Assembly: GCA_032622095.1 (NCBI GenBank)
Contig: CP136066.1
Span: forward strand, 44,715,835 to 44,779,834
Direction: 5' to 3'
Source: Siphonodentalium dalli
Taxonomy: Eukaryota > Mollusca > Scaphopoda > Gadilida > Siphonodentaliidae
DNA: 64,000 bases
Shown: positions 2,028 through 60,276 of the stretch, piece after piece
How positions within the stretch are numbered: position 1 is the first letter of the stretch
How the letters are laid out: every line of letters begins with the position of its first letter
Translations under genes and position numbers: made by a program
The notes under the pieces: model-generated
Database searches by the model: none
What the model was told of the DNA's origin: nothing
Seen by the model: the letters and a program-made list of their open reading frames with translations, nothing else

Positions 2028-2476
2028 GTGACTCGCCATATCAAATCCAGTCGTAAGTCGGGATTTTTTTACCCTGTGCCAATGCATTCTCTTATATATG
2101 CGAGTCGACCATAGGTCGCCTCGCATATATAAGATAATGCATTGGCCTAACAATTTTTGTATCATTTTTTAAAAATAAATGTTTCTGACAAGTTTTAGGA
2201 CATAAAATAAAAAAACATCCATTACCCTGCAGGGAGCCCCACACATATATAGAAGCATATAGAAGAGTGTCGTCTGCTCATGTTTGCCTGGGGCTCTGTA
2301 TGGGTGAAATTATAAAATTGTTAAAGAATACAAGAAAAAATTATTAAAATTGTTAGGCCAATGCATTCTCTTATATATGCGAGGCGACTTATGGTCGACT
2401 CGCATATATAAGAGAATGCATTGGCACAGGGTAAAAAAAATCCCGACTTACGACTGGTTTTGATATGGCGGGTCAC
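2028..2476. mobile_element. Hairpin MITE, ATAT/TA type, copy A
   Basis: Non-autonomous element with inverted ends GTGACTCGCC...GGCGGGTCAC, flanked by ATAT on both sides (2024-2027, 2477-2480; a TA duplication is equally possible). Each end continues through AAATCCAGTCGTAAGTCGGG and ACCCTGTGCC into a ~70-bp palindrome (about 2086-2155 and 2360-2428). The core between them contains CCCTGCAGGGAGCCCC. There is no coding capacity. Related copies lie at 9418, 20596 and 58784, with a half copy at 60093. Confidence 0.9.
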
Positions 2477-2480
2477 ATAT

Positions 2481-3259
2481 TGGGAGACTATAGACTCCCA
2501 GTTCCCAGACATCGCTGTTCTGTTCTGGCAATCGGACCAACAACTTTCTGAATACCGGCACTATAATGATCCATGTTGAGATCGGGTAACCTGCCACTGA
2601 TGTGAATATCCAGTCACCGTACATCTTATGCAGCCCCTAGATACATATATATATACTAGTATGCTTGCCACCCCCTGAATAGAACACAATTATTTTCAGA
2701 AAAAAAAGCAAGAATAACTCTTGAACGAAAAGAAAGTATCATTATATTATTCGGTTGCCCATGGACACAGGAAAGTCGGTCATTCACTCAAGTTTATCAA
2801 CTACAACATGTATAATGTTGGAGGACGTCATATAAGCTTCCTAACAATGTATGCCACAAATGTAGTTCCATCTGTATGATATTGTATATATAACAATTTT
2901 TAAATCGTTTCGTGGGTATAAAATAATAAATATGAATCGAAGTTCCGTGTCCGGAAACGCTTCTACCAATTAATATTGATTTTATTCGAAAATTTTATTA
3001 TAAAATGAGATGATTAAGTGGGACACGTTATTGTTCTATTTTTAGAACAGACAATTTAGGCGATACCATATAGCGATAGAGATCATTAGGGTGTTCCCAT
3101 ACTATGCACCGAACATCAAATGTCTCATATTGATTGTTTGTACTGTTTCATTACATACTTATAAGCGATAATGAGTTTAGTTAACGTTTATTTGTGACAA
3201 AATAACAAAAATAAAAGTTCTGGTCTCTGCCATGTATACGAACGAGCCCGTTTATGCAA
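2481..3259. other. No gene seen
   Basis: AT-rich sequence without a recognisable gene, RNA or repeat, down to the reverse-transcriptase fragment that starts near 3260. Confidence 0.45.
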
Positions 3260-3640
3260 TATACCTTTTTTTGGAAAGCTTTCGACTGCGTTCCACATAA
3301 TAAATTATTAAATATAATCAAGTCACGTGGGATCTACCCCAACATTCTGTCCTTGATAAGAAATTTCGTCTGTGATAGACTACAAAGAGTTAAGGTGAAT
3401 TATATTCGTTCTCAGTTTGGACCGCCGTAACCAGTGGTGTGCCACAGGGAATCGTGTTTGGGGTCTACTCTTTTAATTATGTATATAGATGATGTTCGCG
3501 AATGGCTGAGAGGAATTTGTGAGATTTTTGCTGACGACACAAAACTTGTTGGCAACCCGCAAAATTTTGATATTCAGGACGACATCAACGCTCACTGTAA
3601 ATGGTCTTTGTTCAGACTGACAAAATTGAGATTTAATTAA
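3260..3640 (+). pseudogene. Reverse transcriptase fragment of a CR1/Jockey-like LINE
   Basis: Plus-strand reading gives FWKAFDCVPHNKLLN, then DRLQRVKVN, GVPQG, then YIDD, FADDTKLVG and ..DDINAHCKW. These are the ordered RT blocks of CR1/Jockey-type LINEs (KAFD, GVPQGS.LGP, YIDD, FADD catalytic box, KW). The catalytic FADD at about 3529-3540 is intact, but a stop and at least one frameshift separate GVPQG from YIDD, and no endonuclease or C-terminal region is present. It is a short dead fragment unrelated to its neighbours. Confidence 0.85.
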
Positions 3641-4463
3641 AAAAGACTGTTGGGAAGGACAGAGCAAACAAGTTGTCGTGTGTGAGGAAGTGAACAACAG
3701 AAATAGTATCAACATGATTTCATGCAATTATTATGGTGCATTGTACGAAACGTACGTGGTTTTCAGAGACATTTTAAAAACTGGGGCCCAGAAAAAGGAG
3801 ACACATAATAGAAAAGAAAACTACAGATGAACACAGATATTATTCATGGTAACCGCCAAAAGAAAGAGATGATTCATCGGTCTACCAGAATGCCGACGAT
3901 GATGGAGCAGCAGACCTCATGACATTGTTCAGAAAAAAGAACGAAGATATAAGGCGGACGAAAGTAGAAAAGTACATAGCAAATGGATTGACATATAAAG
4001 GTAAAGCATATATACGAAGTTGGGGTGTGGGGACATGCTGTTCTTACTTCAACTACAGAATGGTACAGCACATACCAAAATTATGGATGTTGCGTATAGT
4101 CTTTTACTATATGCTAAGCTATCAAATAGTAGTATTTTTGCTTAAGATGAAAACCGTTATCCTCTAGTGAGATATCAATATCTCACTCGCATACATCTGC
4201 GATATAATTAAAAGTGATTCGGTACTAGATGAGTTAACATCGCTTCGCCACACTGAACTAGAGTTACTTCCCTGAGTGTGCCGGTTGAAAATTTGTAATA
4301 TGTGATAATTTTGTTTGTTAAACATGCTACCATGTTAGCCCCTTTATCCCTCAACCAATCTCTCTGAAAAAATGGAACTATTTTATATCCACAAGCTCAT
4401 TACCGTTACTGTGTTTGGGTATATAAATTCTCTTTTACACTTCTTTCGAGTTGAGTTTAGCCA
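3641..4463. other. No gene seen
   Basis: AT-rich. The 82-codon ORF at 3919-4167 (+) has no recognisable motif and its neighbours do not support it. Confidence 0.4.
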
Positions 4464-4968
4464 TGAGCCAACTGAGGCCGATGGGGTCATCGTCACAAGG
4501 CTCCGGTCACATTCGTAGCCAGCTTTTTAAATCGATCACAAATGTAGCCAGCTTTCTTCATCGGCGATCACATTCGTAGTTAGCTTTCCTAATTCCATGC
4601 TTTATATGGCGCGAAATATGACATCATCACGTTCGTGACTAACATGTCGACATCATGCTCCAAAACTGACGTCGTTTATCAATTTATATTGGAATATAAT
4701 TGGAGCATTCCAACGACATTGATCGGAAACCTCAGGTTATTAGATGAACTAATATCAAAACAAAATTCAAGTTGTTGTTCATCCATCAACTCAGAAAATT
4801 GAGATTAACCTGATCGTGTTCATTAAGGGTCGCCTGAATATGAAAAGCTGGCTACATATGTGATCGCCATAGAAAAGCTGGCTACATTTGTGATCGATTT
4901 AAAAAGCTGGCTGCGAATGTGGTCGATGACTTGTGACAATGACCACATCAGTCCAACTGAGCGGAGCA
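4464..4968. mobile_element. Fold-back element with iterated subterminal motif
   Basis: The left arm (4464-4590) and right arm (4835-4968) are inverted copies of about 130 bp. Each arm holds three versions of a ~24-bp motif, GATCACAAATGTAGCCAGC, sharing AGCTTT and a GATC end. The middle (4591-4834) is unique and non-coding. Iterated arms resemble Foldback-type or subterminally repeated DNA transposons. No transposase is visible. Confidence 0.75.
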
Positions 4969-4988
4969 TATAATAAACAGAACGTCTA

Positions 4989-5108
4989 CACTTTTTGGTT
5001 GGATGTGGTAATTATCTTATTCGTGATGACAAAGTGGCAAAGCCACTCGTGGAAATTCATTTTTTGGTCATCACTCAAGAGATATTTCCCACATCCGAAC
5101 AAAAAGTG
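4989..5108. repeat. Short fold-back (hairpin) repeat
   Basis: CACTTTTTGGTTGGATGTGG at the left pairs with CCACATCCGAACAAAAAGTG at the right. The interior also pairs (GTGATGAC with GTCATCAC). It is a 120-bp imperfect palindrome, probably a tiny MITE. Target duplication is not clear. Confidence 0.7.
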
Positions 5109-5162
5109 AAGATATCCTATATTTATCCAGATCAAGAGGTGGTATACCATTGGCTATCAAGA

Positions 5163-7602: not shown

Positions 7603-8171
7603 CCCTCAACCCACCCCGACGCACACTCTCCGTCCAACCCACCCCGATGCGCACTCGCCGCCTCAACCCACCCCGACGCGCACTCTCCGTCTCAACCAAC
7701 CCCGACGCGCACTCTCCGTCTCAACCCACCCCGACGCGCACTCCCAGTCTCAACCCACCCCGACGCGCACTCTCCGTCTCAAGCCACCCCGATGCGCACT
7801 CCCAGTCTCAACCCACCCCGACGCGCACTCTCCGTCTCAACCCACCCGACGCGCACTCTCCGTCTCAACCCACCCCGACGAGCACTCCCAGTCTCAACCC
7901 ACTCCGACGCGCACTCTCCGTCTCAACCCACCCCGACGCGCACTCTCCGTCTCAACCCACCCGACGCGCATCTCCGCCTCAACCCACCCGACGCGCATCT
8001 CCGCCTCAACCCACCCCGACGCGCACTCTCCGTCTCAACCCACCCGACGCGCAATCTCCGTCTCAACCCACCCCGACGCGCACTCTCCGTCTCAACCCAC
8101 CCGACGCGCATCTCCGCCTCAACCCACCCGACGCGCATCTCCGCCTCAACCCACCCGACGCGCATCTCCGT
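7603..8171 (+). repeat. 29-bp minisatellite, about 20 copies
   Basis: The unit is CTCAACCCACCCCGACGCG plus CACTCTCCGT, with 27-28 bp variants (CCCGACGCGCATCTCCGC). It has no stop codon in several frames, so three overlapping plus-strand ORFs of 158-227 codons rich in Pro/Thr/Arg arise here. They are repeat artefacts, not genes. The unit corresponds to a single stretch in the inverted paralogue near 28.25 kb. Confidence 0.9.
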
Positions 8172-9129: not shown

Positions 9130-10860
9130 ACCACCCTAAATGCGAACTTTGAATGCCCGCAATTTTACAATGGATATTAAAAATGTTTTCAGTTTTGTGA
9201 TCTGCTTCTCTCCTAAATTGTATGTTATAAATCTCGTTTGATTCGGAGACGAATAACATTTTGGTACCAGGACCACTCCTGCCCAGACCCACAATACTGA
9301 ACCGACATTGGCAAAATTTGGCACACCGTATGCCCCCATTCAGTCCGTATGCATTGGAGTATCAGATGACATCCAATGTTCGACAGCTTCGGATGAGTTG
9401 TGTTATCAAGCACAATTGTGACCCGCCATATCAAATCCAGTCGTAAGTCGGGATTTTTTTACCCTGTGCCAATGCATTCTCTTATATATGCGAGTCGACC
9501 ATAGGTCGCCTCGCATATATAAGAGAATGCATTGGCCTAACAATAGTTTATCATTTTTTTAAAATAAATATTTCTTACAATTTTTAGGACATAAAATAAA
9601 AAGCATCCATTACCCTGCAGGGAGCCCCACACATATATAGAAGCATATAGAAGAGTGTCGTCTGCTCATGTTTGTCTGGGGCTCTGTATGGGTGAAATTA
9701 TAAAATTGTTAAAGAATACAAGAAAAAATTATTAAAATTGTAAAAAATTGTTAGGCCAATGCATTCTCTTATATATGCGAGGCGACCTATGGTCGACTCG
9801 CATATATAAGAGAATGCATTGGCACAGGGTAAAAAAAATCCCGACTTACGACTGGATTTGATATGGCGGGTCATAATAATTGGCCCAAATTGCAAACATT
9901 GAGGGCCAGTAACTCTGGCAAATTTCAATGGATTCTTTCAGTTTCTTGTTCGGCTGATGTTGTCGATGTTATATTCCAAGTTTTGTCCGATTCTGAGACG
10001 GAAAAACAAATTGGTATCACGGACCGCCCCCTGACCCACAATACTGAACCGACACTGGCAAAATTTGGCACACCGCATGCTCTCTTCAGTCCGTTGTGAC
10101 ATAACTATATCGTCCCCCGTGCTAAGTATTGTATAGAACACAAACTCAATATAAGTGCTCGGTCCCTTACAGAAACCTCGCACATCTTAATTACAGCCCT
10201 GCCCAGACCCGCACACAATGAAGTCGATCCCCCAAATATGGTAATAGGGAATGACCATAACGGCAGAGCCAATGCCGACGTGTATTGCCAAATACCTCAT
10301 CTAATATTCATCCAAAAGAGTATATATAAGACACAGCTACATCCCCTCACATCATGCTTTCACTTGACTCATCTTGTCTTGAGGTTCCTATACCTAACCG
10401 GGTATCACTTATCTTTCGGGGCCATCACTTCGCGGCTTTGTTCACATTGATTCAGCGACTTCTTTTGTACGCATTGATTCAGCGACTTCTTTTGTATACA
10501 TTGATTGTGTATTATACATCCTACATTAAAGATTGGCATCATATCTATGTGTCGTCATTACATCACAATTGGTGTATCCAACGACAGGCAATGCTAGGCA
10601 GTTTCGGAGGAGTTGTGTTATCAAGCCTCATTGGCCGAAATTGCAAACTTTGAGAGCCCAAAATCTCCCGTCATTTTTCAACAGATTTACGATCTGTTTT
10701 CAGTTTCGTGATTGGTTTGTGCAGTAGATATTACATTCTAAGTTTAATTCGATTAGGACAAGAACACACCTCAACTCCCCATACCCACAATACCGAAGAA
10801 AAATAATGTCAAAATTTGGCGCACACAGTGCACTAATGGAGCTTTCCAGCGGTAATTATC
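9130..10860. repeat. Diverged tandem units interrupted by a MITE
   Basis: Recurring blocks in the same order: GCGAACTTTGA/GCAAACATTGAGGGCC/GCAAACTTTGAGAGCC (9140, 9893, 10640), TTTTCAGTTT, CCACAATACTGAACCGACA and GGCAAAATTTGGCACACCG (9290, 10040; degenerate at 10780), and TTGTGTTATCAAGC (9400, 10613). MITE B sits inside one unit. Small ORFs in this block follow the repeats and are not supported as genes. Confidence 0.65.
9418..9877. mobile_element. Hairpin MITE, ATAT/TA type, copy B
   Basis: Same structure as copy A: GTGACCCGCC end, two inverted ~70-bp palindromes (about 9466-9537 and 9757-9826), PstI-like core CCCTGCAGGG. The right end reads GGCGGGTCATAAT. It is flanked by AATT on both sides (9414-9417, 9878-9881). 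The undisrupted repeat unit at 10612-10632 shows the joined site TCAAGCCTCATTGGCC. Confidence 0.88.
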
Positions 10861-20049: not shown

Positions 20050-21165
20050 GCCTATACAAATGGTTCCAGTTCTTTTGATATAAGAAAGTAATCAAGTCTA
20101 CTACATTTCTGTTTGGCTCCATACCAGGTGTATCTCTTAACTGTTTGGTTGTTCTGTCTCCAGATATCTATTAAGCCAAGTTCTGACATAATATTTTGTT
20201 TTTTTAATTTTCACGACTTTTGAGATTATTTTCTCTGAAATAACGATATGTGTCTAGTTCATAATCTTGTACAACATTCCAGTCACCAACCCAGATACTT
20301 GACAGATTGGCAATTTCCACAACTTTTTTTCAAAAAATTGAGGATAATCTTTACTGGGACCATAAACAGTCACAAGTGATAGACTTTCATTCTGAAATGT
20401 TATGTCAATTATAATATAGTTGCCATTAGGATCTGGAATGGTGTTATCTATTTTATATTCGAAGGAGCCATTGGAACCAATTAATATGCCTCTACTACAT
20501 CTGTTGAAGGAAGCAAATTTCATTTGAGTGCCCCATTCAGATCGCCCAATTTTTTCACTTTGCTTTGAAGAGTGAGCATCTATTAAAATACATATGTAAC
20601 CCGCCATATCAAATCCAGTCGTAAGTCGGGATTATTTTTACCCTGTGCTAATGCATTCTCTTATATATGCGAGTCGACCATAGGTCGCCTCGCATATATA
20701 AGAGAATGCATTGGCCTAACAAATTTTTATCATTTTTTTAAAATAAATGTTTCTGACAATTTTTAGGACATAAAATAAAAAACATCCATTACCCTGCAGG
20801 GAGCCCCACACATATATAGAAGCATATAGAAGAGTGTCGTCTGCTCACGTTTGTCTGGGGATCTGTATGGGTGAAATTATAAAATTGTTAAAGAATACAA
20901 GAAAAAATTATTAGAATTGTAAAAAATTGTTAGGCCAATGCATTCTCTTATATATGCGAGGCGACCTATGGTCGACTCGCATATATAAGAGAATGCATTG
21001 GCACAGGGTAAAAAAATCCTGACTTACGACTGGTTTTGATATGGCGGGTCACATATGTCATAATCTTTTCGGAGTCTATTGAAAAAGTCTTCACGTTTGA
21101 TTACATCTGAAGCCAAACATCTGCCACATATTGTGGAATTGAGTTATAGAAAAGCCGAACACAAG
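20050..21165 (-). pseudogene. LINE ORF2 endonuclease domain (split by a MITE)
   Basis: The first part (21165-21053) reads LASDVIKREDFFNRLRKDYD. It continues after the MITE with ICILIDAHSSKQSEKIGRSE, SRGILIGSNGSFEYKI, IIIDITFQNESLSLVTVYGP and, near 20100, YTWYGAKQKCSRLDYFLIS. This is the APE-type endonuclease of Tx1/L1 LINEs, which nicks target DNA. In intact relatives the DI..LQE.H motif carries a catalytic Glu; here it reads ILIDAH, so the site is damaged. Deleting the MITE and one ATAT copy rejoins the two parts in frame. Confidence 0.85.
20596..21052. mobile_element. Hairpin MITE, ATAT/TA type, copy C
   Basis: Ends GTAACCCGCC...GGCGGGTCAC flanked by ATAT (20592-20595, 21053-21056). Two inverted palindromes (about 20646-20716 and 20933-21003). 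It sits inside the LINE endonuclease codons for Tyr-Asp-Ile. Confidence 0.9.
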
Positions 21166-21983: not shown

Positions 21984-22342
21984 CCCTTTACCCAACAGAA
22001 CGGCCCTGTGCCAATGCATTCTCTTATATAAGAGAATGCATTGGCTTAACACATTAAAAATTATAAAATTGTTAAAGAATGTAAGAAAAAATGGTAAAAA
22101 GTGTTAAAAAAAGATTTTTTTTAGGCCAATGCATTCTCTTATATATGCGAGGCGACCTATGGTCGACTCGCATATATAAGAGAATGCATTGGCACAGGGC
22201 ATAACTGTAACTATCACAATGTGGTCAAGGAGCCGGTTCCAATGATATCCATATTTGTATGGTTCTATTGAGACAGACCGAAGATATTTTAGGCTGTTGA
22301 AGCTTTATTTGGCCGTTTTTGGCCGGTTTGTTGGGTAAAGGG
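21984..22342. mobile_element. Hairpin MITE, TTAA type, copy with TTAT flanks
   Basis: Ends CCCTTTACCCAACA...TGTTGGGTAAAGGG, as in piggyBac-related elements. The flanks are TTAT on both sides (21980-21983, 22343-22346) instead of TTAA. The left palindrome has lost its centre; the right one (22127-22197) is complete. The right subterminal region contains CACAATGTGGTCAAGGAGCC. Confidence 0.9.
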
Positions 22343-24889: not shown

Positions 24890-25141
24890 CGGGAATAAAC
24901 TAACAAGGACTAAAACACACCGAATTCGATCACTTGAAATAATTATGTTACAATGTTAACCTCTGTATATAACCAAACAAACATATTTAGAGGTCAACTT
25001 TCCAACACCATGCATGTTTTCTTCCGAATAAAGATTAGATAGGAATACCGGTATGTGATATAATTTATACTGCAACCCACCGAGAACTACAAGTGCATGC
25101 CCTCGCCAAAAGTTGCAATTTCACATCAAACGATGCCGCCC
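24890..25141 (+). repeat. 252-bp identical duplication, copy 1
   Basis: It is base-for-base identical to 26130-26381, in direct orientation, 1240 bp away. It has no TG...CA ends, so it does not look like a pair of LTRs. Copy 1 runs into the ORF at 25093. Confidence 0.95.
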
Positions 25142-25984: not shown

Positions 25985-26440
25985 TTCTCGCCGCGGTGGA
26001 GGGCCGTTAGCGGTAATTCGAACGCGGTTAGGAAAAAAATAACGCGGTGTATGGCGGTAACGAACACCAATAACGCGGTGACCTGCGGTAACCAACGGTA
26101 AAAATACCGTACCAGTACCGCGGGTCAACCGGGAATAAACTAACAAGGACTAAAACACACCGAATTCGATCACTTGAAATAATTATGTTACAATGTTAAC
26201 CTCTGTATATAACCAAACAAACATATTTAGAGGTCAACTTTCCAACACCATGCATGTTTTCTTCCGAATAAAGATTAGATAGGAATACCGGTATGTGATA
26301 TAATTTATACTGCAACCCACCGAGAACTACAAGTGCATGCCCTCGCCAAAAGTTGCAATTTCACATCAAACGATGCCGCCCTCCGTCGCGGTACAGAATG
26401 ATAACCGCGGTAGTTTGGTGGTATCACCACGGTAAGTACC
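25985..26440. repeat. GCGGTA-rich block split by the second 252-bp copy
   Basis: Positions 25985-26129 and 26382-26440 form one block of GCGGTA/ACCGCG motifs (GGCGGTAACGAACACC, CCGCGGTAGTTTGG). The identical 252-bp segment 26130-26381 interrupts it. The abrupt composition change at both joins shows that this copy is the inserted one. Confidence 0.75.
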
Positions 26441-31140: not shown

Positions 31141-32103
31141 GAAATCCCAACAGTCGCTATGACCGATTCCTTCAATTCCAATATGTCACTACCATAATAT
31201 CACACATTACTAGTTACACGCCAGTAAATTCTGATATATCACCTGAACCTGAATATATATGAACTATATCTGGTAAATAGACACTTCTTAATGGGGAAGG
31301 CCGTGCTCGTTGTGATATATTATATACAAATTATATACACTTGAATGATGAACGCAATAGCTGGCCATATCGTCATTTTTCAGCCTGTCGGCTTTATAAT
31401 TGGAGATTGAGTTCGCACAATAACCCATACGTATGTTGACACAAATAGTAGGAAAATTCGACAATTTCCTACTGCTAGACGAAAAGCAACACTATGTGAC
31501 AATGGTTCCCGCCAATCTCAGTCTATTTAAGACAGAATGCTACGAGTACTGTATGCCTATGTAGACACAAGTTACACAGCCGATTAAAAAAACCCGCTTT
31601 TATTGTTTTTGCTTCAGTCGCTGCGATGTATTTGTTAATATTTTGTGACTATCTATATATATACGGAGCTCCAAACTGGTCTAACTGTGGTAACTTTACG
31701 AGGAAGGTAATGGTGCAGTTTAAATATTCCAAAAGTGGCACTGTCGGGAGTCAAGGAGGGAAAGAAAAAAGGCACCATAATCTATTTTGTTTCACCGATA
31801 TTGCAGGTAGAGTAAATAAATAGGGCTTTGAAAAAACCCTTGAGATTTGGTGCGTGTGTTCATCGACTCAAATCAATAGTTTTTATTTACCCCCGAGCTC
31901 GAAGAATAGTGAATTAGGCTGAATTAGGTGCGTTATACTTTACAAAAATGTTCTTACCTCAATATACTCAAAAGCGGATATATATGGTAATATAATAGTA
32001 ACTGCTTGCTTTGTCATTTTCATGAGATCAAACTAAACTTGAATACATATCGGTCGATTAAATAATAATTCAATATGTATGGATGAATTTATAACAGCAT
32101 AGA
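31141..32103. other. No gene seen
   Basis: AT-rich. Positions 31680-31800 (CAGTTTAAATATTCCAAAAG, GTCGGGAGTCAAGGAGG) look like one more unit of the preceding repeat. Confidence 0.4.
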
Positions 32104-33835
32104 CCACATTGTGATAGTTACAGTTATGCCCTGAGCCAATGCATTATCTTATATATGCGAGTCGACCATAGGTCGCCTCGCAAATATAAGAGAATGCATT
32201 GGCCTAAAAAAAAATCTTTTTTTAACACTTTTTACCATTTTTTCTTACATTCTTTAACAATTTTATAATTTTTAATGTGTTAAGCCACATTATCATTGGA
32301 ACCGGCTCCTTGACCACATTGTGATAGTTACAGTTATGCCCTGTGCCAATGCATTCTCTTATATATGCGAGTCGACCATAGGTCGCCTCGCATATATAAG
32401 AGAATGCATTGGCCTAAAAAAAAATCTTTTTTTAACACTTTTTACCATTTTTTCTTACATTCTTTAACAATTTTATAATTTGTAATGTGTTAAGCCACAT
32501 TATCATTGGAACCGGCTCCTTGACCACATTGTGATAGTTACAGTTATGCCCTGTGCCAATGCATTCTCTTATATATGCGAGTCGACCATAGGTCGCCTCG
32601 CATATATAAGAGAATGCATTGGCCTAAAAAAAAATCTTTTTTTAACACTTTTTACCATTTTTTCTTACATTCTTTAACAATTTTATAATTTTTAATGTGT
32701 TAAGCCACATTATCATTGGAACCGGCTCCTTGACCACATTGTGATAGTTACAGTTATGCCCTGTGCCAATGCATTCTCTTATATATGCGAGTCGACCATA
32801 GGTCGCCTCGCATATATAAGAGAATGCATTGGCCTAAAAAAAAATCTTTTTTTAACACTTTTTACCATTTTTTCTTACATTCTTTAACAATTTTATAATT
32901 TTTAATGTGTTAAGCCACATTATCATTGGAACCGGCTCCTTGACCACATTGTGATAGTTACAGTTATGCCCTGTGCCAATGCATTCTCTTATATATGCGA
33001 GTCGACCGTAGGTCGCCTCGCATATATAAGAGAATGCATTGGCCTAAAAACAAATCTTTTTTAACACTTTTTACCATTTTTTCTTACATTCTTTAACAAT
33101 TTTATAATTTTTAATGTGTTAAGCCACATTATCATTGGAACCGGCTCCTTGACCACATTGTGATAGTTACAGTTATGCCCTGTGCCAATGCATTCTCTTA
33201 TATATGCGAGTCGACCATAGGTCGCCTCGCATATATAAGAGAATGCATTGGCCTAAAAAAAAATCTTTTTTTAACACTTTTTACCATTTTTTCTTACATT
33301 CTTTAACAATTTTATAATTTTTAATGTGTTAAGCCACATTATCATTGGAACCGGCTCCTTGACCACATTGTGATAGTTACAGTTATGCCCTGTGCCAATG
33401 CATTCTCTTATATATGCGAGTCGACCATAGGTCGCCTCGCATATATAAGAGAATGCATTGGCCTAAAAACAAATCTTTTTTAACACTTTTTACCATTTTT
33501 TCTTACATTCTTTAACAATTTTATAATTTTTAATGTGTTAAGCCACATTATCATTGGAACCGGCTCCTTGACCACATTGTGATAGTTACAGTTATGCCCT
33601 GTGCCAATGCATTCTCTTATATATGCGAGTCGACCGTAGGTCGCCTCGCATATATAAGAGAATGCATTGGCCTAAAAAAAAATCTTTTTTTAACACTTTT
33701 TACCATTTTTTCTTACATTCTTTAACAATTTTATAATTTTTAATGTGTTAAGCCAATGCATTCTCTTATATATGCGAGGCGACCTATGGTCGACTCGCAT
33801 ATATAAGAGAATGCATTGGCACAGGGCCGTTCTGT
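32104..33835 (-). repeat. Eight-unit ~210-bp tandem array of MITE hairpins
   Basis: Units start at 32131, 32341, 32551, 32761, 32971, 33180, 33390 and 33599 (period 210, twice 209). Each unit has CTGTGCCAATGCATTCTC, the ~70-bp palindrome, a CCTAAAAAAAAATC run, AACACTTTTTACCATTTT and CATTATCATTGGAACCGGCT. A ninth, oppositely oriented palindrome closes the array, followed by GGCACAGGGCCGTTCTGTT, the truncated left end of a TTAA-type MITE. The array is therefore an internally amplified MITE in minus orientation, and neither TTAA terminus survives. Units are nearly identical. GACCGTAGG is seen only in units 5 and 8, and a CAAATC variant in units 5 and 7. Confidence 0.95.
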
Positions 33836-38317: not shown

Positions 38318-38693
38318 CCCTTGAACCAACAGAACGACCCTGTGCCAATGCATTCTCTTATATATGCGAGTCGACCATAGGTCGCCTCGCATATATAAGA
38401 GAATGAATAGGCTTAACACATTAAAAATTATAAAATTGTTAAAGAATGTAAGAAAAAATGCTAAAAAGTGTTAAGGCCAATGCATTCTCTTATATATGCG
38501 AGGCGACCTATGGTCGACTCGCATATATAAGAGAATGCATTGGCACAGGGTATAACTGTAACCATCACAATGTGGTCAATGAGCCGATTCCAATGATACC
38601 CATATTTGTATGGTTCTATTGAGACAGACCGAAGATATTTTAGGCTGTTGAAGCTTTATTTGGCCGGTTTTGGCCGGTGTGTTGGGTAAAGGG
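38318..38693. mobile_element. Hairpin MITE, TTAA type, in MULE coding sequence
   Basis: Ends CCCTTGAACCAACAG (diverged) and TGTTGGGTAAAGGG, flanked by ATAA (left, one change) and TTAA (right, 38694-38697). It contains two inverted palindromes (about 38343-38410 and 38476-38545). Removing it with one TTAA gives an open TAT-TTA-ACA-GAG-TTT-TGG reading across the MULE transposase. Confidence 0.92.
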
Positions 38694-39126: not shown

Positions 39127-40767
39127 CAGGGGGGGGGGGGGTCTGGAAAAAAATTGCACATATAGGGCCCAAAAAGTTTTTTCCGACCTCGAGGGACCCA
39201 CCACCCCATTTTTGCAAAAAAAATATTTTTTTCCTCCAAAATTTTGGGGACCCACCCCCCGGTTCTCATGTTTTTATCAAAATTTCAGAGGTTTTTTTAG
39301 CCGTTCTTCAATAAGTGTGTTAACTGCCTTACTAATTGGTAAACACAGATCAGAAAAACGAAAAATATACTGTATTTCCATGTGTTTCCTGGTGTTTTCA
39401 GTATCTAACAACAATATTAATTAAGCATTGTGTAGGTACACTATATGTCACAAATTGCCCTAGACTCCATTATCCTTAATATATCGAGTGTGTTGTGTCT
39501 GACAGAGAACACTGGCCAGTGTAAATAGTGGTAAACAGGTCAGGGGTTCCATAATTATATGTGCATGATCAAAGAACTCTTTAGTCTTATCCAATGGGAT
39601 GGGGTGGGAGGGGAATTGTTTTTTGTTTATGTATACAGATAGATATATGGTTATTATACTGTCCGATATTAGTCGGCGGGTATATAGTTGACGTCTCAAG
39701 CCGCCTGTCCGTACAAACATTTTGAATTTTAACTCAAGAGTCAGTTGTCATATTTGATGCCCTATGGCATGGTGACGGACCAGAAATGGGGGACGAATAT
39801 GCATAATATCGCGGGTTGTGACCACCAATGTCTACCAGAGTTATGGGCCCTGTTCGCCTTTATGAAATTCAGTCCATACAAAGTTTTCGCAATATAAGTT
39901 AAGTGTCGGTTGTCAAATTTTGATGTGGTTTGGTATGGTGATAGACCAGAATGAAGAATTGAATGTCATTTCTCAATGCATCTGAATGCATCACATTATT
40001 TCAGTTCATCTGTTTGTAAGTGATAACAGTATACAATTAGTATTTTAGTTTTTCGTCTTGTTGAGCAGTAAAGCTCTCAGATGAAGTTCGGAAATTCAAT
40101 GAGAATAGCGTCACCTTCATTTTGGATTGTCTGAGCAGTAAACAGTAATGTCATTCATCATAACCAATTCAGTTTTATTTGGGTAATTGTTGCAAATTAA
40201 CATTACTTGCAATCATTCAAGATGAGAAATAACCAGAAGGAATGAATTTGATTACATGCCAGAACAAGACAGTATTTCAGACATTAGAAATTTATGAGAT
40301 ACCCTTTTCAATTTCATGTTATGCAACAATCAGGTTAATGATATCTACTAGTAGTCATCATTGAGTATTCACCATGTAGTATCCAATTTGTAATAGAGTT
40401 TTTTTGTTTTATTACTTTTATTCAGATAATACAACTGGGTAATATATTAATTTTGTTACTAAATATTTCTTCCGTTGATCATAAGTTTCCTGAACGTTAA
40501 TGTGGTCCACTGTGAAGTGGTCCGGGATACTGTGAAATCCAGAATGTTGCTAAATCTGAGGCTAAAGAGTCACTTTAGCTGCCTATATAGCCCTATAACA
40601 ACAAGCATGGTACTAACATGCTTACAAACAACATTACATGGTCAGTACTTGTAAATTGTTTGAAAAAAACCCATTTTGGAAAAAATTTACAAGCACCATT
40701 TTTTCCGCCTCTGGACCACCCACCCACCCCGGCCCTATATACGGAATTTTTTTGCAGACCCCCCCTG
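39127..40767. mobile_element. hAT-type non-autonomous transposon with perfect 8-bp target duplication
   Basis: Terminal inverted repeats CAGGGGGG...GTCTGGAAAAAAATT...ATAGGGCC on the left and GGCCCTATATACGG...AATTTTTTTGCAGACCCC...CCTG on the right. TATGTGTA is present at 39119-39126 and 40768-40775. The 8-bp duplication and CAGGG ends are diagnostic of hAT elements. The 1.64-kb interior has no open transposase, so it depends on an autonomous relative. A shorter copy lies at 61326-62347. Confidence 0.93.
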
Positions 40768-47994: not shown

Positions 47995-49790
47995 ATTCGA
48001 ATTCGAATTGTTTATTAGCAAAGTCAACATCTAAGTTGCAATATGCCATACAACTTATTTACACAACATTATACAAACAATACACAACATACATATATAT
48101 CAATAAATGAGTTCATCATATTATATGATATTGATAATAAATACAAATAATGCTAATACATTTGGGAATATGTTTTCTGAAATGGTTTCATATAATATTT
48201 ACATTATATATAATATAATGTAATACTTGCTTCATGGTAACTTTATAAATGCTAATTTTAAGAAAATGCTCACTCTTTTCAATATACTTATGTTAAGCAG
48301 TGACAGCAGTCTGTAGAATTTATTTCTGTTAGGGTTTTCCCAGTAATACTTCGGTATATAGGTTTCTCGCAGATCGTTGAGTTCAGTACACAAAATAACA
48401 AAATGGTATTCATCACATACATTTTCGCCACATAACGGGCATTTCGTGTCTTTACATGTACTTTTATTCCATCTGCATTGCTCTACCGGTAGTCTGTGAT
48501 TGGCTGTTCTAAATTTCAATAAATACGTAGCTAGATGAGATGGCATATATACTAAGTATCGGCTCAATCTGACAGAATCCTTTATGTTTCGATAAAATAT
48601 GGCACGGCTTGAAATAGACATATCTAGATTGCCGAAGAGGCAACATGTGTGTTGCTCTATTAATTTCGCTTTCATGTGTTTCATGTCTGTCTTGCTTAGT
48701 GGTGACTGATTCTGCCACGCACTTTCCATATTTACTTCTCGCAGAGTTTCTTTGATAAACGAAATCCATTTAATCTTGTTTTGTAGTATGGCATCACCAT
48801 CATTGAGATACCTGAGTAGAAGGAATACATTTTTAGCTAATTCTGATCCTTCGTGCGATACTAGTTTTGACCAATATGATATTGCTCGGCACTTAATTTC
48901 GATCATTACGGGGTATCTCCCCAATTCTGCATATACCATGTAGTTTGGTGTGCTAGACTTCATTGTTGTGATAATTTTGCAGAATTTAAGATGTATGGTC
49001 TCCAAAATTTGAGTTTTCTCGAAACACCAAACTTCACCACCATACAGCATAATCGGCATAATCATAGAGTCAAACAATTTAAACATAATATCTAGAGGCA
49101 GCTGCAGCTTTCTTGTTCTATTCAAAAGGCCATACATTACTCTCGTTGCTGTATTCTGGGTCTGCTTAATCGATTGACAGAATCTACCATTGTAAAATAA
49201 TTTAATACCGAGGTATTTAAATTCTTTTAGAATTTGTATTTCTTGGCCCCTATAAGTGAATATTGGTAAGTTCTTTGACCATTTGTTTGTAAAAATTACC
49301 ATTTTCGTTTTCATTGTATTAACTTGCAGATTCCATGCCTCGGCATAATCAGCGAATGCTGAAAGTGCACGATGCATATTGTCCTCCGAGTCTGAGAGGA
49401 TCACGGTATCGTCTGCATATAATAAACACAATATATTTATAAAACAGCCAATATGTTCAAAGTATTTCTCATCAAAATAGTTCAAGTTTGAGATTGCACA
49501 GTCGCTCAGAAAATTTTGTATATCGTTCACAAACAAAGAAAATAAAAGAGGTGACATTGGTTCACCTTGAAATAAACCAATCTGGCTGATAAAGAAGTCT
49601 GATTGCGAATTATTATTTTTCACACATAATTTTATATTGTCGTACATGCTTCGTATTACCTGTAGTATCTTACCGTTTATATCTGCTTGCATAAGTTTCA
49701 ACCATAGAGCATCTCTCCATACAGTATCAAATGCTTTGCCGGAAATCAATAAAAGTACAATAAATCTTCCGTCCGCTCTGTAGGTATACG
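47995..49790 (-). mobile_element. 5'-truncated LINE (3' half)
   Basis: RT-to-3'-end portion on the minus strand: coding 49780-48232, 3' UTR 48231-47995 with AATAAA (complement at 48013-48018) and a short TTCGAA-repeat tail. Just upstream of the long ORF another frame reads SGRKIYCTFIDF, completing the RT motif FIDF.KAFDTVWR with a one-base shift near 49745. Truncation near 49790 is typical of incomplete target-primed insertion. Confidence 0.85.
48232..49749 (-). CDS. LINE reverse transcriptase, C-terminal 505 codons
   Basis: The longest open frame in the window. Residues 5-11 KAFDTVW (RT block with catalytic Asp), 58-70 GLFQGEPMSPLLF, 111-114 YADD catalytic box, then KTKMVIF, FKYLGIKL and the thumb region LLNRTRKLQLPLDIMF. 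Residues 437-454 form a C-x2-C-x8-H-x4-C finger (CPLCGENVCDEYHFVILC). The order matches polymerases of non-LTR elements (I/Jockey-related superclade; exact clade unsure). The first blocks and the endonuclease are missing, so it is not autonomous. It has no stops over 1.5 kb, which suggests a young insertion. Confidence 0.9.
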   Translation of the reverse strand: MISGKAFDTVWRDALWLKLMQADINGKILQVIRSMYDNIKLCVKNNNSQSDFFISQIGLFQGEPMSPLLFSLFVNDIQNFLSDCAISNLNYFDEKYFEHIGCFINILCLLYADDTVILSDSEDNMHRALSAFADYAEAWNLQVNTMKTKMVIFTNKWSKNLPIFTYRGQEIQILKEFKYLGIKLFYNGRFCQSIKQTQNTATRVMYGLLNRTRKLQLPLDIMFKLFDSMIMPIMLYGGEVWCFEKTQILETIHLKFCKIITTMKSSTPNYMVYAELGRYPVMIEIKCRAISYWSKLVSHEGSELAKNVFLLLRYLNDGDAILQNKIKWISFIKETLREVNMESAWQNQSPLSKTDMKHMKAKLIEQHTCCLFGNLDMSISSRAIFYRNIKDSVRLSRYLVYMPSHLATYLLKFRTANHRLPVEQCRWNKSTCKDTKCPLCGENVCDEYHFVILCTELNDLRETYIPKYYWENPNRNKFYRLLSLLNISILKRVSIFLKLAFIKLP

Positions 49791-51795: not shown

Positions 51796-52111
51796 GTTCA
51801 TTTTGAAGAATATTCTGACAGACATTCAAATTCCACAAACGTGCCAAGTGGGAGACATACAACGTGAGACAAAATGGTGTGTTCGGTATAAATTTTAATT
51901 CACTATTTATTATGACTCTGTAGTTTGTGGTTGGTAAGAACATCATATGTGTAGCTTCCTTCATTCGACACATTTACATAATCTACATCCATTTTCGTTG
52001 ACCGCGTAGCCCTTCTCACAAGGGAGGTAACATCCATGAATATCGTCACAGTCTGCGGGGAGAAAATATGGTTAAATACACATATCGATCTCAAACTTCT
52101 TTAAACCTTCC

Positions 52112-52268
52112 ATTATTTATGCGAGTTTCCCATAGGGAACCTCGCATACACAAGAGAATACATTGACCTAACAATATTTACCTTGATCTGGCAAGCCAGT
52201 CCAATATCTTATATATGCGAGGCTTCCTATGGGGACTCGTATATATAAGAGAATGCACTGGCACAGGA
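52112..52268. repeat. Degenerate pair of MITE hairpins
   Basis: Two diverged ~65-bp palindromes (TTATGCGAGTTTCCCATAGG...CCTCGCATACACAAG and CTTATATATGCGAGGCTTCC...CTCGTATATATAAGAG) end in GCACTGGCACAGGA. It is an older relative of the shared hairpin module without clear outer ends. Confidence 0.75.
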
Positions 52269-52534
52269 CGTTTAATGCTGCACCAGCGCAGCTCCCACTA
52301 TGAAAGGGTTAAACAATTAAACGGCAGACGCACTTTTTGAATAAATCCATGTAAAAATTTGCTTAAGATTTTCAGCAAAGAATTTCTCTTGAATTATTTG
52401 GTGACAAAACTTGAATTTCTCGTATCCCCATCTGCATTGTATATATATAACCTGAACAGTTATTAAGAGAAGACACAAACAATTGATTTTGATATATTTG
52501 AAAAGTTGTAAATATTATTTTGTTCATCCTTTAA

Positions 52535-52926
52535 CCCTTTACCCAACAGAAGGGCCCTGTGCCAATGCATTCTCTTATATATGCGAGTCGACCATAGGTC
52601 GCCTCGCATATATAAGAGAATGCATTGGCTTAACACATTAAAAATTATAAAATTGTTAAAGAATGTAAGAAAAAATGGTAAAAAGTGTTAAAAAAAGATT
52701 TTTTTTAGGCCAATGCATTCTCTTATATATGCGAGGCGACCTATGGTCGACTCGCATATATAAGAGAATGCATTGGCACAGGGCATAACTGTAACTATCA
52801 CAATGTGGTCAAGGAGCCGGTTCCAATGATATCCATATTTGTATGGTTCTATTGAGACAGACCGAAGATATTTTAGGCTGTTGAAGCTTTATTTGGCCGG
52901 TTTTGGCCGGTTTGTTGGGTAAAGGA
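52535..52926. mobile_element. Hairpin MITE, TTAA type, complete
   Basis: TTAA (52531-52534), CCCTTTACCCAACAG... to ...TTGTTGGGTAAAGGA, TTAA (52927-52930). Two inverted palindromes (about 52560-52629 and 52709-52778), then GCATAACTGTAACTATCACA and TGTATGGTTCTATTGAGACA. The clearest intact member of this family. Confidence 0.95.
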
Positions 52927-53757: not shown

Positions 53758-55251
53758 CCCTGTGCCAATGCATGCTCTTATGTATGCGAGTCGACCACAG
53801 GTCGCCTCCCATATATATAAGAGAATGCAGTGGGAAAAAAAAAATTATATTATTTTTTATAATCGTTAAAGAATGTAAGAAAAAATGAAGAAAAAAAATG
53901 ATAATGATTATTTTAAAGAATGTAAGAAATAATGAAGAAAAAAAATGATAACAAATTGTAATAGAATGTTAGAAATAATGATAAAGAATGATAAAACATT
54001 GTTAAAGAATGTAAGAAAAAATTCTAAAAATTGTTAAAGAATGTAAGAATTTTTTTTATATAAATGATAAAATTGTTAAAGAATATGGAAAAAAATGATA
54101 AAGATTCTTATAGAATGTAAGAAAAAATGATAAAAATTGTTGAAGAATGTAAGAAAGAAATTATAAAAATTGGTAACAATTGTTAAAGAATGTAAGACAA
54201 ATTGATAATGAATGATAAAACAACTGTTAGGCCAGTGCATTCTCTTATATATGCGAGGCAACCTATGGTCGACTCGCATATATATAAGAATTAACTGTCA
54301 TGTTGAGTGTTTTTATGGAGATAACTTGTGTAAAACCCTTAAACCCGAAGGGTTTTACATACAAGTTATCACCACTTACCTCACGGTTACATCTCCATAA
54401 AAATACTCCACATGACAGTTAATCCTTATATTTATATACATTTAGCGAAAAGGCGGATTTTGTAAATGTATTTAAATCGAAAAGTGTATATTGAGAAAAC
54501 CAGCCCAAAATATCCCATAGCACACCAGCTGAGAAGTTATTTTGGTACCATTTGTCACGTGAATTTCCCATTTGTACGTGATGTGTTTTTGTAAGCCGGT
54601 CAAATGCTCTCACCACAGGAGCCTGGAATTTGGTAAAAAAAACCCTCTTTTTTGGCGGAACCAGCACCCGGGACCGCAGGTACAATTGGCAACAATGTTC
54701 GAACAATAACAGTATACAATGAGATGTGCTACATTATTCTGGAACATAAAAGCTGATACATTTCACGCGGATTTACTGTTCAATTTTTGGATTCGAAAAC
54801 GAAAATAATTTATCACTGACAAGCGGAAGGTTTTTATGGAGATGTAATCGTGAGGTAAGTTGTCATAACTTGTGTAAAACCCGAACCTTTCGTGCTTTGT
54901 TTTAGAAATTAATACTACGTGACACCAAAGGTGGTTTTAATCAATTTTCTTTTCTATTGGCAAAACTTAAAACGAACAATTTCAAAACGAGGCTCTTTAT
55001 ATTGACACCAGTGCTGATGATTTATTAAGTCAATCCTGTGCGAGTGTAAATGCGCCCAGAACATTACGCGTTCTTCTTCTCCAAAATCTCAGTATGGCGC
55101 GTCGATGTAATTATCGTTGCAGTTATCACTTTCTTCCGCGTTCACCGGGTTATAACTGCAACTAGTCACGTGGGCGCCGACCAATCTGAATGCTGGATTT
55201 AGTGATAATCACACTCAGTATGTAAATATAAGAGAATGCATTGGCACAGGG
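53758..55251. mobile_element. Diverged hairpin MITE with a nested element
   Basis: The left end ACCCTGTGCCAATGCATGC forms a palindrome (to ~53832). The right palindrome starts GGCCAGTGCATTCTCTTATA (54231) but is interrupted at CGCATATATA and resumes as TATAAGAGAATGCATTGGC and ACAGGGT at 55226-55251. The core (53840-54225) is an A-rich tandem of about a dozen GTTAAAGAATGTAAGAAAAA-like units. Confidence 0.85.
54285..55226 (-). mobile_element. Terminal-hairpin element nested in the MITE (copy 2)
   Basis: Inverted relative of 19532-20044. It starts with the hairpin TTAACTGTCATG...CATGACAGTTAA (54291-54422), continues with CATTTAGCGAAAAGGCGG, and ends with GTGGGCGCCGACCAATCTGA and GCTGGATTTAGTGATAATCA. 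It is longer than copy 1. A second partial arm (TTTTTATGGAGATGTAATCG) lies at 54832, suggesting internal duplication. TATA flanks both sides. Confidence 0.8.
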
Positions 55252-56106: not shown

Positions 56107-56124
56107 TATGATATATTGGGTTAA

Positions 56125-56588: not shown

Positions 56589-56686
56589 TTAATCATATCG
56601 ATAATGTGTGTCGTAAAAGCTATATTGAAGGTACCGTGTGCGTTCAGCCGCTACCAAATAAACTACCCGGTTTATAAAATAAAACC

Positions 56687-57058: not shown

Positions 57059-57485
57059 AGTTTAACTGTTATTGAGATTATAGGGTGAATACGATCCATG
57101 TTTTCATACAATAATAATACAGATATATATTGTATGTATGTTTTTTTATATTTTATTATTATATAACATTTTAACAATGCTATATAAATACAAACAAAAA
57201 TAATAGAACAAGATATTGTATATTATATTCCTGAGATACAGTTTACTGTACAGAACACTCGTTAGATATGTACACGAAGCGGAGTAACTCTATATACACC
57301 CAATCCTTTGTTTGGTTAAACTTGTAAAATTCTACTTTCCTTTCGCAGATTGACGATCATTCTGGACTCGTTGGCCTTTGACCTCTAATTGTGGGTCTAA
57401 GGCAAAGCTAGACGGCACGGCGAGAATGACGAGGTTTGTCGAATGATTGACGACATGTCGGTATTAATTTCTTCTCATGTTTTAA

Positions 57486-57878
57486 AGGTACTCAATCCGA
57501 TTAAACACCTCTAAATTACTATTTCTTTCGCTTCGGGGGTAACAAATATTTGATTCGAGTCGAGGAACCCACACATCAAAGCTCAGAGTGATAAGATATC
57601 GAGAAACACGCCGTCAAACGAATGGTCTCGGTCAAAATTGCGGATGAAGATGGATAACTCTAAAAACAAGTGGTAATACTGATAATACGGCCATATTTCA
57701 TTGAAAAAAATGTTGATAAATAACACGTTTTGGGAAATTTGATACCGCAGTTGACAGTCACTGGTTAGCATTATTTTGTTGCAATTAATCGATTCTGATC
57801 ACTAAAGCGTATTTTGAATAAATGTTGTTGTTGTTGTATTTTGATGATATGGGGACCCACTGATCGGATTGAGTACCT
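57486..57878. mobile_element. TTAA MITE with AGGTACTC-type ends, copy 2
   Basis: TTAA (57482-57485), AGGTACTCAATCCGAT...ATCGGATTGAGTACCT, TTAA (57879-57882). Perfect 16-bp inverted ends and a TTAA duplication point to a piggyBac-type transposase. Non-coding. Confidence 0.93.
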
Positions 57879-57882
57879 TTAA

Positions 57883-58231
57883 TCTTTTCCGAACAGTATT
57901 CGGTAAAAGATGTATATTGTATGTACGTTAAACATGGGTATATTTGCGCTTTGTTGATCATGAAAAATACCAATCGGAGTGCTTGACATCACGTTAATAC
58001 ATACCCATGGTATATGTAGTGCAGGCACGACCGAATGGTCCTTGCAAACACTTGTGGCCTTCTGGACAGTCACCACCTTTACACTTGTCCATATATACCC
58101 CAATCCATCTCAGTGATTTGGACTGCACGCCTGCACGAAAATAGGATAGGCAATTTGCATCAGTGACAAATCGAAGACAAGTAATAAATAAGAAATACAC
58201 AATACGCCCGGGTAGTCATTTTATTATTCTA
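57883..58231. other. No gene seen; Cys-rich ORF trace
   Basis: The minus frame 58200-57994 reads ...DKCKGGDCPEGHKCLQGPFG, a Cys/Gly-rich short stretch that could be an exon of a secreted Cys-rich protein. No splice signals were fixed. Confidence 0.25.
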
Positions 58232-58700
58232 ACACTTCCTATAAACCGAAGACCTGTCTCAAACACTCCCTATAAACCGAAGACCTGTCCCAAACTCTCC
58301 CCATAAACCGAAGACCTGTCCCAAACTCTCCCTATAAACCGAAGACTTGTCCCAAACTCTCCATATAAACCGAAGATCTGTCCCAAACACTCCCTATAAA
58401 CCGAAGACTTGTCCCAAACACTCCCTATAAACCGAAGACCTGCCCCAAACACTCCATATAAACTCCCTATAAACCGAAGACCTGTCCCAAACTCTCCCTA
58501 TAAACCGAAGACCTGTCCCAAACTCTCCCTATAAACAGAAGACCTGTCCCAAACTCTCCATATAAACCGAAGACCTGTCCCAAACACTCCATATAAACCG
58601 AAGACATGTCCCAAACTCTCCCTATAAACCGAAGACCTGTCTCAAACACTCCCTATAAACCGAAGATCTGTCCCAAACACTCCCTATAAACCGATACCCT
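58232..58700. repeat. 31-bp minisatellite, about 15 copies
   Basis: Unit CTCCCTATAAACCGAAGACC plus TGTCCCAAACA, period 31 (58266, 58297, ...). One unit is truncated near 58450. Because 31 is not a multiple of 3, the minus strand gives a 31-residue periodic ORF (GLRFIG.VWD.SSVY) that is an artefact. Confidence 0.92.
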
Positions 58701-58783
58701 GCCCCCAATCTCTCAATAGCACCCAGATTGGAGATTGTCACCGAACATCATCGTGAATGACGATCCGGGTTGATCGAATATAT

Positions 58784-59172
58784 GACCCGCCATATCAAAT
58801 CCAGTCCATAGGTCGCCTCGCATATATATAAGAGAATGCATTGGCCTAACAATTTTTTATCTTGTTTTTTAAATAAATGTTTCTTACAATTTTAGGACAT
58901 AAAATAAAAAAACATCCATTACCCTGCAGGGAGCCCCACACAAATATAGAAGCAGATAGAAGCGTGTCGTCTGCTCATGTTTGTCTGGAGCTCTGTATGG
59001 GTGAAATTATAAAATTGTTAAAGAATACAAGAACAAATTATTAAAATTGTTAGGCCAATGCATTCTCTTATATATGCGAGGCGACCTATGGTCGACTCGC
59101 ATATATAAGAGAATGCATTGGCACAGGGTAAAAACATCCCGACTTCCGACTGGATTTGATATGGCGGGTCAC
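58784..59172. mobile_element. Hairpin MITE, ATAT/TA type, copy D with a deleted left arm
   Basis: The left end GACCCGCCATATC... joins CCAGTC directly to CATAGGTCGCC, losing the outer half of the left palindrome. The right end is complete (palindrome 59054-59123, GGCGGGTCAC). ATAT lies at 58780-58783 and 59173-59176. Confidence 0.88.
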
Positions 59173-59176
59173 ATAT

Positions 59177-60092
59177 AACAGCTTCTTCATAATTATTATA
59201 ACTACAACGAACATGAATATAAAGACGATGACGACGACGGTGATGATAATACAATACTTATGACGAAATCGGCGATAATGGTTGAGTTGTTGAATAATCC
59301 TACTTCAGCCACCATAGGTTCGTCAGATCTCGCCATCTGTATCTCATATTGGTGACGCCCTCTATTAGGCCTCTAATAATGTAGGTAATTTTGGTTCTAC
59401 ATCATCACCAAGAACCAGACAGACAGTGGTTCTTCATTTTTGTTCCCCGTGGCACTCTTTTACAGTGGTGTAGAATCAAATATTGGATTTTTTCATTTCC
59501 GCCATGGTGTCCACAACTGTGTTTCATTGCTGCTTGCAACAATATTGGCTACACATACGATATCACACATGGTCAACTGGTCCTGCTAATATGCTATGAT
59601 GCTGATGGTCTTGCTGATTTGCTATGATGCGGCTAGGGCAAACTGATGCCGTTATAAAAAAGTACCGTTATTTTTTCTCAAGTTGTCATTTTCTCTGTGT
59701 TCGGCTAATCCGAGCGATTTGAGAAAGAAAAAAAACAGGTGTGTGTATGAAACAATCAACAATATCTATATTTAGCAGGACCACTTGACCATGGGGTGGG
59801 TATACTATACTCACACTGTGCTGTGAAAAACACCGCGAGAACGAGAATTATAGCGACCTTCATATTCAAAGAAAGAAATGAACTATGTGACATGTTGTTT
59901 TATCGACATGGTAGAGATAAGCACGGTATGTATGTATATGTGTCTTCCTTAGCTTATATGACACAAGTCAAGTTGTCCTTCTATAGTGTGCTATGATTAT
60001 GTGAGTCCTGCTGAATTGATATGAATATGATATTAGGGTAAACTCTCTTAACCCTTTGAGTGCCAGATCGGATTTTTGTATCAACCCATATA
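59177..60092. other. No gene seen
   Basis: The 78-codon ORF at 59391-59627 and 66-codon ORF at 59796-59996 have no recognised motif. Confidence 0.35.
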
Positions 60093-60276
60093 CCCTGTGC
60101 CAATGCATTTTCTTATATATGCGAGTCGACCATAGGTCTCCTCGCATATATAAGAGAATGCATTGGTCTAACAATTTTTTATCATTTTTTTTAAATAAAT
60201 GTTTCTTACAATTTTTAGGACATAAAATAAAAAACATCCATTACCCTGCAGGGAGCCCCACACATATATAGAAGCA
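60093..60276. repeat. Half copy of the ATAT/TA hairpin MITE
   Basis: CCCTGTGCCAATGCATTTTC, one palindrome (60098-60168), TAGGACATAAAATAAAAAAC and CCCTGCAGGGAGCCCCACAC, stopping at AAGCATATATAGAC. The second half and both outer ends are absent. Confidence 0.9.

Follow-up and report, generated by a model that had tools for sequence, protein, structure and literature searches.

Our analysis of a 64,000-nucleotide stretch of the genome of the scaphopod Siphonodentalium dalli (C6:44715835-44779834, hereafter the window) shows that a 69-bp palindrome is part of a cassette carried behind at least four kinds of ends of miniature inverted-repeat transposable elements (MITEs), here called families A to D. 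We consider it probable that the cassette began as the interior of an old TTAA-flanked MITE (family C) and entered younger MITE families through exchange of ends, taken as a whole with the mechanism set out below. In family D, the exchange of ends can be read almost directly. Beyond the window, 2.23 Gb of the genome (9 contigs) were scanned, and 20 spread 10-kb loci plus smaller targeted pieces were sampled (numbered with an L).

Structure and abundance of the palindrome

The palindrome, GCCAATGCATTCTCTTATATATGCGAG T CGACC ATA GGTCG C CTCGCATATATAAGAGAATGCATTGGC, has 33-bp arms with 32 paired positions, a single fixed T·C mismatch, and a 3-base ATA loop. Two intact copies (67 nt each) fold computationally into this same hairpin, including the mismatch and the loop, with z of -14.2 and -15.9. 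In the window, the arm CCAATGCATTCTCTTATATA has 52 matches at up to 3 mismatches, compared to 0.01 expected from shuffles, and GCGAGKCGACC has 50 at up to 1 mismatch, compared to 0.34 expected. An edit-distance scan finds 29 palindrome-like stretches at no more than 26 edits; the weakest entries (22010 with 23 edits and 55180 with 24) lean on their context, because the best match in a randomised 16-kb sequence takes 27-28 edits. The recurrent palindrome noted in a preliminary description of the window is thus real and more extensive than stated there. In fact, an exact 20-mer of the arm occurs 314,110 times genome-wide (157,048 forward and 157,062 reverse), with 0 for the reversed control. If every arm has its partner, this amounts to ~157,000 palindromes.

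An Rfam scan of the window gave no match at the gathering threshold, and the exact arm is absent from viral and prokaryotic contig collections, from which near records may have been left out. Five 20-21-mers had no match in open-access papers, where we found no published report of these sequences. Among the matches listed for G000 C1:742000-926300, the arms are spaced ~14.6 kb and then 11.2 kb apart, which suggests large tandem duplications carrying palindromes.

One cassette behind several kinds of ends

The cassette, which is non-coding, has CCCTGTGCC as its outer edge; inward from there come the palindrome, an inner flank (either CTAACAAT or TTAACA), and an A/T-rich core. Its outer edge is sharp and identical in the A, B, C, and D contexts, and edge plus arm has 139,583 exact matches genome-wide (reversed control, 0). 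Elements of A, B, and C usually hold two palindromes in inverted orientation, those of D one. A fuzzy edge pattern returned 207 rows: 116 outer ends belonging to six contexts (A, the left and the right of B, the left and the right of C, and D00-type, the last described below), 3 unassigned outer ends, and 88 inner sides, which the pattern also caught and which were split from the outer ends by eye.

Family A has the ends GTGACCCGCC, terminal inverted repeats (TIRs) of ~51 bp, and a 4-bp target duplication of A and T only (ATAT, AAAT, or ATTT) that is exact in seven of the nine elements having both ends; the exact end occurs 21,425 times genome-wide. Family B, with the ends CCCTTTACCCAACA and a TTAA target duplication, comprises two subfamilies with distinct flanks. 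In 13 of its 16 rows, TTAA flanks the element on either side, a count that falls to 12 of 15 independent rows because L002 and L007 have common flanks. Family C, with the ends CCCTTTCATGACTGGAGCT and TTAA, is strongly diverged, spans 200-270 bp in 9 of 10 rows, and has an apical stem of CTCCC/GGGAG instead of CGACC/GGTCG. Family D has the ends CCCTTTGAGTGCCA, also with TTAA. Both sides carry TTAA in 6 of 10 C rows and 6 of 10 D-type rows; in the remaining B, C, and D rows, one side is altered or shifted, or TTAT occurs twice (21984). End pairs hold a palindrome arm in 8/9 cases for A, 16/16 for B, 9/10 for D-type, and 10/10 for C, fractions that are not frequencies because many loci were fetched by arm match; duplicates among these rows are L002/L007 and two L034 rows.

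Two families with different ends and targets had been described beforehand, and their elements in the window lie at the places given, to within 2 bp. The ends and targets do differ, but there are at least four end types, with the third family, C, the most diverged. Of the ATAT/TA flanks ascribed to A, ATAT stands, while TA gives way to the 4-bp A/T duplication; the TTAA flanks ascribed to B stand except at 21984, where they are TTAT/TTAT. Most elements do contain inverted palindrome pairs, but the left palindrome is partly lost in 21984 (loop and inner arms) and 58782. The statement that A and B have little in common outside the palindromes and the A/T core does not hold, as they also have the edge CCCTGTGCC and the inner flank in common, besides the A/T core unit AAATTATAAAATTGTTAAAGAATRYAAGAAAAAAT.

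The elements in the window are as follows.

2028..2476, plus strand: family A element with ATAT duplication and ~51-bp TIRs; inverted palindromes at 2078-2146 and 2357-2425
9418..9874, plus strand: family A element, used for folding; both palindromes exactly consensus (9468-9536, 9755-9823)
20596..21052, plus strand: family A element with ATAT duplication; palindromes at 20647-20715 and 20934-21002
58782..59172, plus strand: family A element; deletion in the left palindrome, reaching from the TIR almost to the apex; right palindrome intact at 59054-59122
21984..22342, plus strand: family B element; collapse of the left palindrome (22010-22045), with the other one intact at 22125-22193
38318..38693, plus strand: family B element; palindromes at 38344-38412 and 38476-38544
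52535..52926, plus strand: family B element with TTAA on both sides; palindromes at 52561-52629 and 52709-52777
32102..33755, minus strand: tandem array of 7.9 units x 210 bp; a unit consists of a palindrome, the B right flank, and core
33752..33820, minus strand: left-end palindrome of the array's source B element; terminus cut off within the TIR
52100..52308, strand unassigned: diverged family C element; palindromes at 52100-52167 and 52195-52262; right end ...GAAAGGG, then TTAA
53758..54299, plus strand: old long-core copy; A/T minisatellite core between palindromes at 53764-53833 and 54231-54299; a TTAA foldback breaks up the right side
55226..55251, strand unassigned: half palindrome arm with ACAGGG edge and C-like right flank
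60052..60280 (right end approximate), plus strand: truncated family D copy; TTAA followed by the end CCCTTTGAGTGCCA, cassette edge, palindrome at 60099-60166, and A-type core

With regard to foldback elements, which are marked by long inverted terminal repeats and internal repeats, the A copy at 9418 folds almost end to end, and the flanks of B and C are without symmetry. The 210-bp array at 32102-33755 is a B element inverted and repeated, with both ends lost. Variation between its units amounts to 3 sites across the 8 palindromes and 6 columns across 7 spacers, and the eight palindromes are not independent, because all sit in one B-derived array. A second array, of 97 bp and derived from C, is found at L034.

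Three further observations concern the surroundings of these elements. The foldback at 54291-54422, inserted beside or into a palindrome arm, is another TTAA-flanked element (TTAA, CTGTCATG...CATGACAG, TTAA). At L002 2307-2467, a near-perfect foldback between TTAA sites adjoins a B element, and one TTAA is common to both. At L014 1077-1190, an A-type core and edge are followed by an end unlike that of any family described here (ATTTTTTTTACCCTGTG with other sequence before it), which is either a truncation or a fifth end type.

Helitrons and Helentrons have, by definition, neither target duplications nor TIRs; with both present, the elements described here do not belong to them. TTAA targets are used by Kolobok elements too. 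The B, C, and D ends, which start with CCCTTT, fit the piggyBac-type TIR motif (12-19 bp, starting CCYT, as given in PMC2872659). Family A departs from the piggyBac type in its target duplication, which is not TTAA.

A probable exchange of ends around the cassette

Both A-type and D-type ends occur without the cassette, which identifies it as an exchangeable interior. In particular, L020 5236-5662 has A ends and an ATAT duplication, and its significant similarity to A is confined to the terminal 45-63 bp. Two elements with D-like ends and TTAA, D0 (L035 56-341) and D00 (L069, 180 bp), also lack the cassette.

Alignment of a D element (L048) resolves it into pieces of these: positions 3-43 match the D00 end, 44-181 an A cassette half, and 198-389 plus 403-448 match D0. 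The three parts of D recur in L070, where the D0 terminus is complete and abuts the A/T core at a TTAA. The far D0 end of L070 falls at the edge of the piece examined, and we regard this locus as a likely intermediate in the end exchange that gave D. Most simply, D0 would have jumped into a core TTAA of a D00-ended carrier; the D00 end on the outside and the D0 end on the far side would then have paired, and ~12 bp of the inner D0 end would have been lost. The core has 4 TTAA per 63-79 bp in the three window B elements and 2-3 per 210-218 bp in three A elements; the window average is 6.75 per kb. The preliminary description had proposed either capture of ends or a module mobile or functional in its own right; end capture is the better of these, and D shows the exchange almost directly.

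Intermediates also exist on the side of family C. At L018 and L032, C-like ends flank palindromes of the new type and the A/T core; at L018:8550, one arm is old-type and the other new-type. Because of these intermediates and mixed arms, the cassette probably changed while still behind C ends and passed to A, B, and D ends afterwards. Of the carriers sampled, C has diverged most and is probably the oldest, although the order of events is inferred from a small sample.

Possible traces of the hairpin

Large deletions within palindromes tend to end at the hairpin tip. By hand count, 8 of 10 have one end no more than 4 bases from the centre (p = 0.0013 by a post hoc test if endpoints are uniform over positions 20-50; 3e-6 over all 69); the collapsed palindrome at 22010 and the half arm at 55226 are the exceptions. 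The ten were hand-picked from 72 partial matches (two each in L002 and L014, one each in L031, L041, and L042, and window 58806, 22010, and 55226), and five of them (L002, L031, L041, L042) come from loci found by exact arm. Excluded were two L007 copies of L002 events, loop or arm insertions (L026, L072), cuts at locus edges, and matches shortened by substitutions alone, mostly C-type. These tip-ended deletions suggest that the hairpin forms in vivo. They also fit the cutting of cruciforms, since such structures are described as being cut to yield hairpin-capped ends (PMC7999016).

A possible course of events can be assembled from these traces. Each family would be moved in trans by a transposase reading its ends, which would be piggyBac-like for B, C, and D. 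Hairpins would extrude and break at the tip, leaving ends that would allow cassette and termini to rejoin, and tandem arrays would enlarge through unequal exchange or slippage. A step we offer more tentatively is that the hairpin may be retained because its carriers amplify better.

Candidate transposases

At least 128 matches to the piggyBac transposase domain occur genome-wide, many in long open frames; this is a lower bound from 116 of 649 candidates scored. Downstream flanks at L060 and L064 contain weak A-end-like matches only, with 3-4 of 15 bases changed. The long A-end pairs listed include some of ~1.4 kb and one of 3.4 kb. As a candidate autonomous A element, we considered the 3.4-kb pair (L073, the only long pair examined), which proved to be an A element with a ~3-kb insert whose longest stop-to-stop frame is 126 aa. 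The idea that the palindrome is the transposase-binding site of one family is weakened, because it sits behind ends of two target-duplication classes.

Divergence and alternative explanations

The palindromes are less diverged than several other parts of their carriers. Tallies were made on loci not picked by arm match (the window and L009-L028), with palindromes assigned by hand and large deletions excluded. A palindromes have 3 edits/828 bp (12 copies), compared to 11/416 in A TIRs (11 copies, p 0.0007) and 14/729 in the GC-rich A core (8 copies, p 0.005), and B palindromes have 4/759 (11 copies), compared to 19/807 in the B right flank (7 copies, p 0.003), with p-values that are optimistic because the two B subfamilies differ in flank and palindromes with large deletions were excluded. 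The B core, however, is as conserved as the B palindromes (2/304, 5 copies, p 1.0), and a hand tally for D gave no clear difference between palindrome and left end. An earlier tally of three full window copies per family had the same direction for A; in B, the left palindrome was more variable than the core. Greater conservation of the arms, which the preliminary description had stated relative to the cores, therefore holds against the A TIRs, the A core, and the B flank, and fails for the B core.

Low divergence could mean that the palindrome is selected as a putative functional hairpin (a binding site, or an RNA or DNA hairpin) that aids any carrier, an explanation whose appeal is increased by the very high copy number. 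It would also account for the scarcity of intermediate apices: 126,828 are new/new and 10,119 old/old, whereas the one hybrid type counted, new/old, accounts for 53 of 137,000, a scarcity that fits either a switch in one step or selection keeping the stem paired. Nevertheless, recent expansion from few sources explains low divergence as well, the B core is equally conserved, D shows no clear difference, and many C copies have decayed, so that we regard selection for the hairpin as doubtful. A bolder version, in which the hairpin cassette is a portable amplification module that is tied to no single transposase, crosses classes via tip breakage and end exchange and confers copy number, we would call speculative and unlikely. 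Frequent gene conversion, which the preliminary description had named beside selection, would hold palindromes alike, and they are indeed near-identical across families. Arm-to-arm conversion, though, would remove the T·C mismatch, and this mismatch is present in 80 of 83 sampled 69-base copies and in 99.5% of 127,404 apices whose other 20 bases are exact (position 28 is T in 126,828). The paired form, G, is found in only 227 of these, compared to 349 with A or C. Because the mismatch persists, arm-to-arm correction is at most minor; a little conversion may occur, as G is somewhat more frequent than one would predict from A or C taken individually. As the force behind the likeness of the palindromes, conversion seems to us very improbable, and the earlier suggestion of selection or conversion is only partly borne out.

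Two other explanations concern the ends rather than the hairpin. The cassette could itself be a transposon with ends (A)CCCTGTG...CACAGGG(T) that inserted itself in ancestral A, B, and D00 elements, which went on to amplify it. Its outer boundary is the same in every context, TA flanks the edge on both sides in A, and D00 without the cassette reads CAACCCATAT followed by TTCC where D reads CAACCCATAT followed by ACCCTGTGCC. Yet the TA on both sides follows from the symmetry of A alone, and no target duplication suits B (GG or GA versus CA or TA). Moreover, 116 of 119 outer ends fall in known end contexts, with 3 unassigned, so no clear free cassette is seen; insertion as an independent transposon is, in our judgment, unlikely. 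It is somewhat less unlikely, but still not what we would expect, that a single TTAA MITE gave rise, by divergence, to the ends of B, C, and D, leaving A alone as a true end exchange. TTAA and CCCTTT are common to the three families, and CAGA(A/T)CGG lies near the terminus in B and in the window D copy, but not in other D copies (by eye). Against common descent, D0 and D00, neither of which contains the cassette, differ in their interiors, D is composed of both, and the B and C flanks do not align past CCCTTT (by eye).

End exchange, which we continue to prefer, must itself be set against several observations that weigh against it, the well-conserved B core among them. The step giving A two identical TIRs flanking the cassette is not seen in our sample, and cassette-free B is known only as a right end (L020 7861) with no cassette within 480 bp. 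The test of deletion endpoints was devised after the data were seen. Among 21 hand-picked sequences, the covariation score and the count of double-change cells are both higher than in any of 500 shuffles, but two neighbouring apical pairs account for 14 of the 18 double-change cells, and pairs with double changes number 5 compared to a shuffled mean of 4.8. Repeated covariation along the stem was thus not found in these 21 sequences, and the signal is essentially one old-to-new switch. Lastly, in the 1.0-1.4 kb downstream of the stop codons of 20 piggyBac genes, ends of types B, C, and D are absent, and the coding strand lacks exact arms.

Other features of the window

Minisatellites at 58231-58694 (31-bp units), 29191-29796 (43-bp units), and 7605-8171 (29-bp units) are unrelated to the palindrome as far as seen. 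Two duplicate pairs are 99-100% identical (40051-40350 with 61619-61918, and 24890-25141 with 26130-26381), and a reverse transcriptase reading frame (RVT_1, E 4.6e-22) lies at 48232-49749 on the minus strand; this frame and the style of the repeats would suit an invertebrate animal.

Relation to known systems

How MITE interiors originate, and why some spread widely, was left open for the coral CMITEs in 2010 (PMC2872659). For one end exchange, the genome analysed here preserves the components and the outcome as well as what looks like an intermediate, at a copy number sufficient to measure hairpin breakage and arm co-evolution directly.

Modular elements have been described in other animals. 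Tetris of Drosophila virilis resembles the present elements in being a non-autonomous, modular, inverted-repeat foldback element with ~220-bp internal repeats in tandem arrays, but it has 8-10 bp duplications and TIRs of up to 1,735 bp, which it has in common with DAIBAM (PMC4079207). The Cg_HINE Helentrons of Crassostrea gigas similarly come in varied combinations of flanks and tandem-repeat cores; they belong to the Helentron superfamily rather than to TIR elements, and their abstract mentions no palindromic cassette (PMC7492417).

In organisation, the closest precedent is the CMITE system of Acropora corals, and the cassette described here is a large, palindromic, class-crossing variation on that kind of system. 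According to the text of PMC2872659, CMITEs are ~100 bp long, with a 75-bp internal region and ~1,600 estimated copies. They are TTAA MITE families that combine different piggyBac-like TIRs, most starting with CCCTTT, with one conserved internal region; they form tandem arrays, and a new element (CMITE-IN) arose by insertion at TTAA. The string "palindrom" occurs 0 times in that text. In S. dalli, by contrast, paired 69-bp hairpins surround an A/T core, arms number in the hundreds of thousands, and the cassette also enters a family with a 4-bp A/T duplication. What is new relative to CMITEs is the crossing of duplication classes, the copy number, and the visible intermediate.

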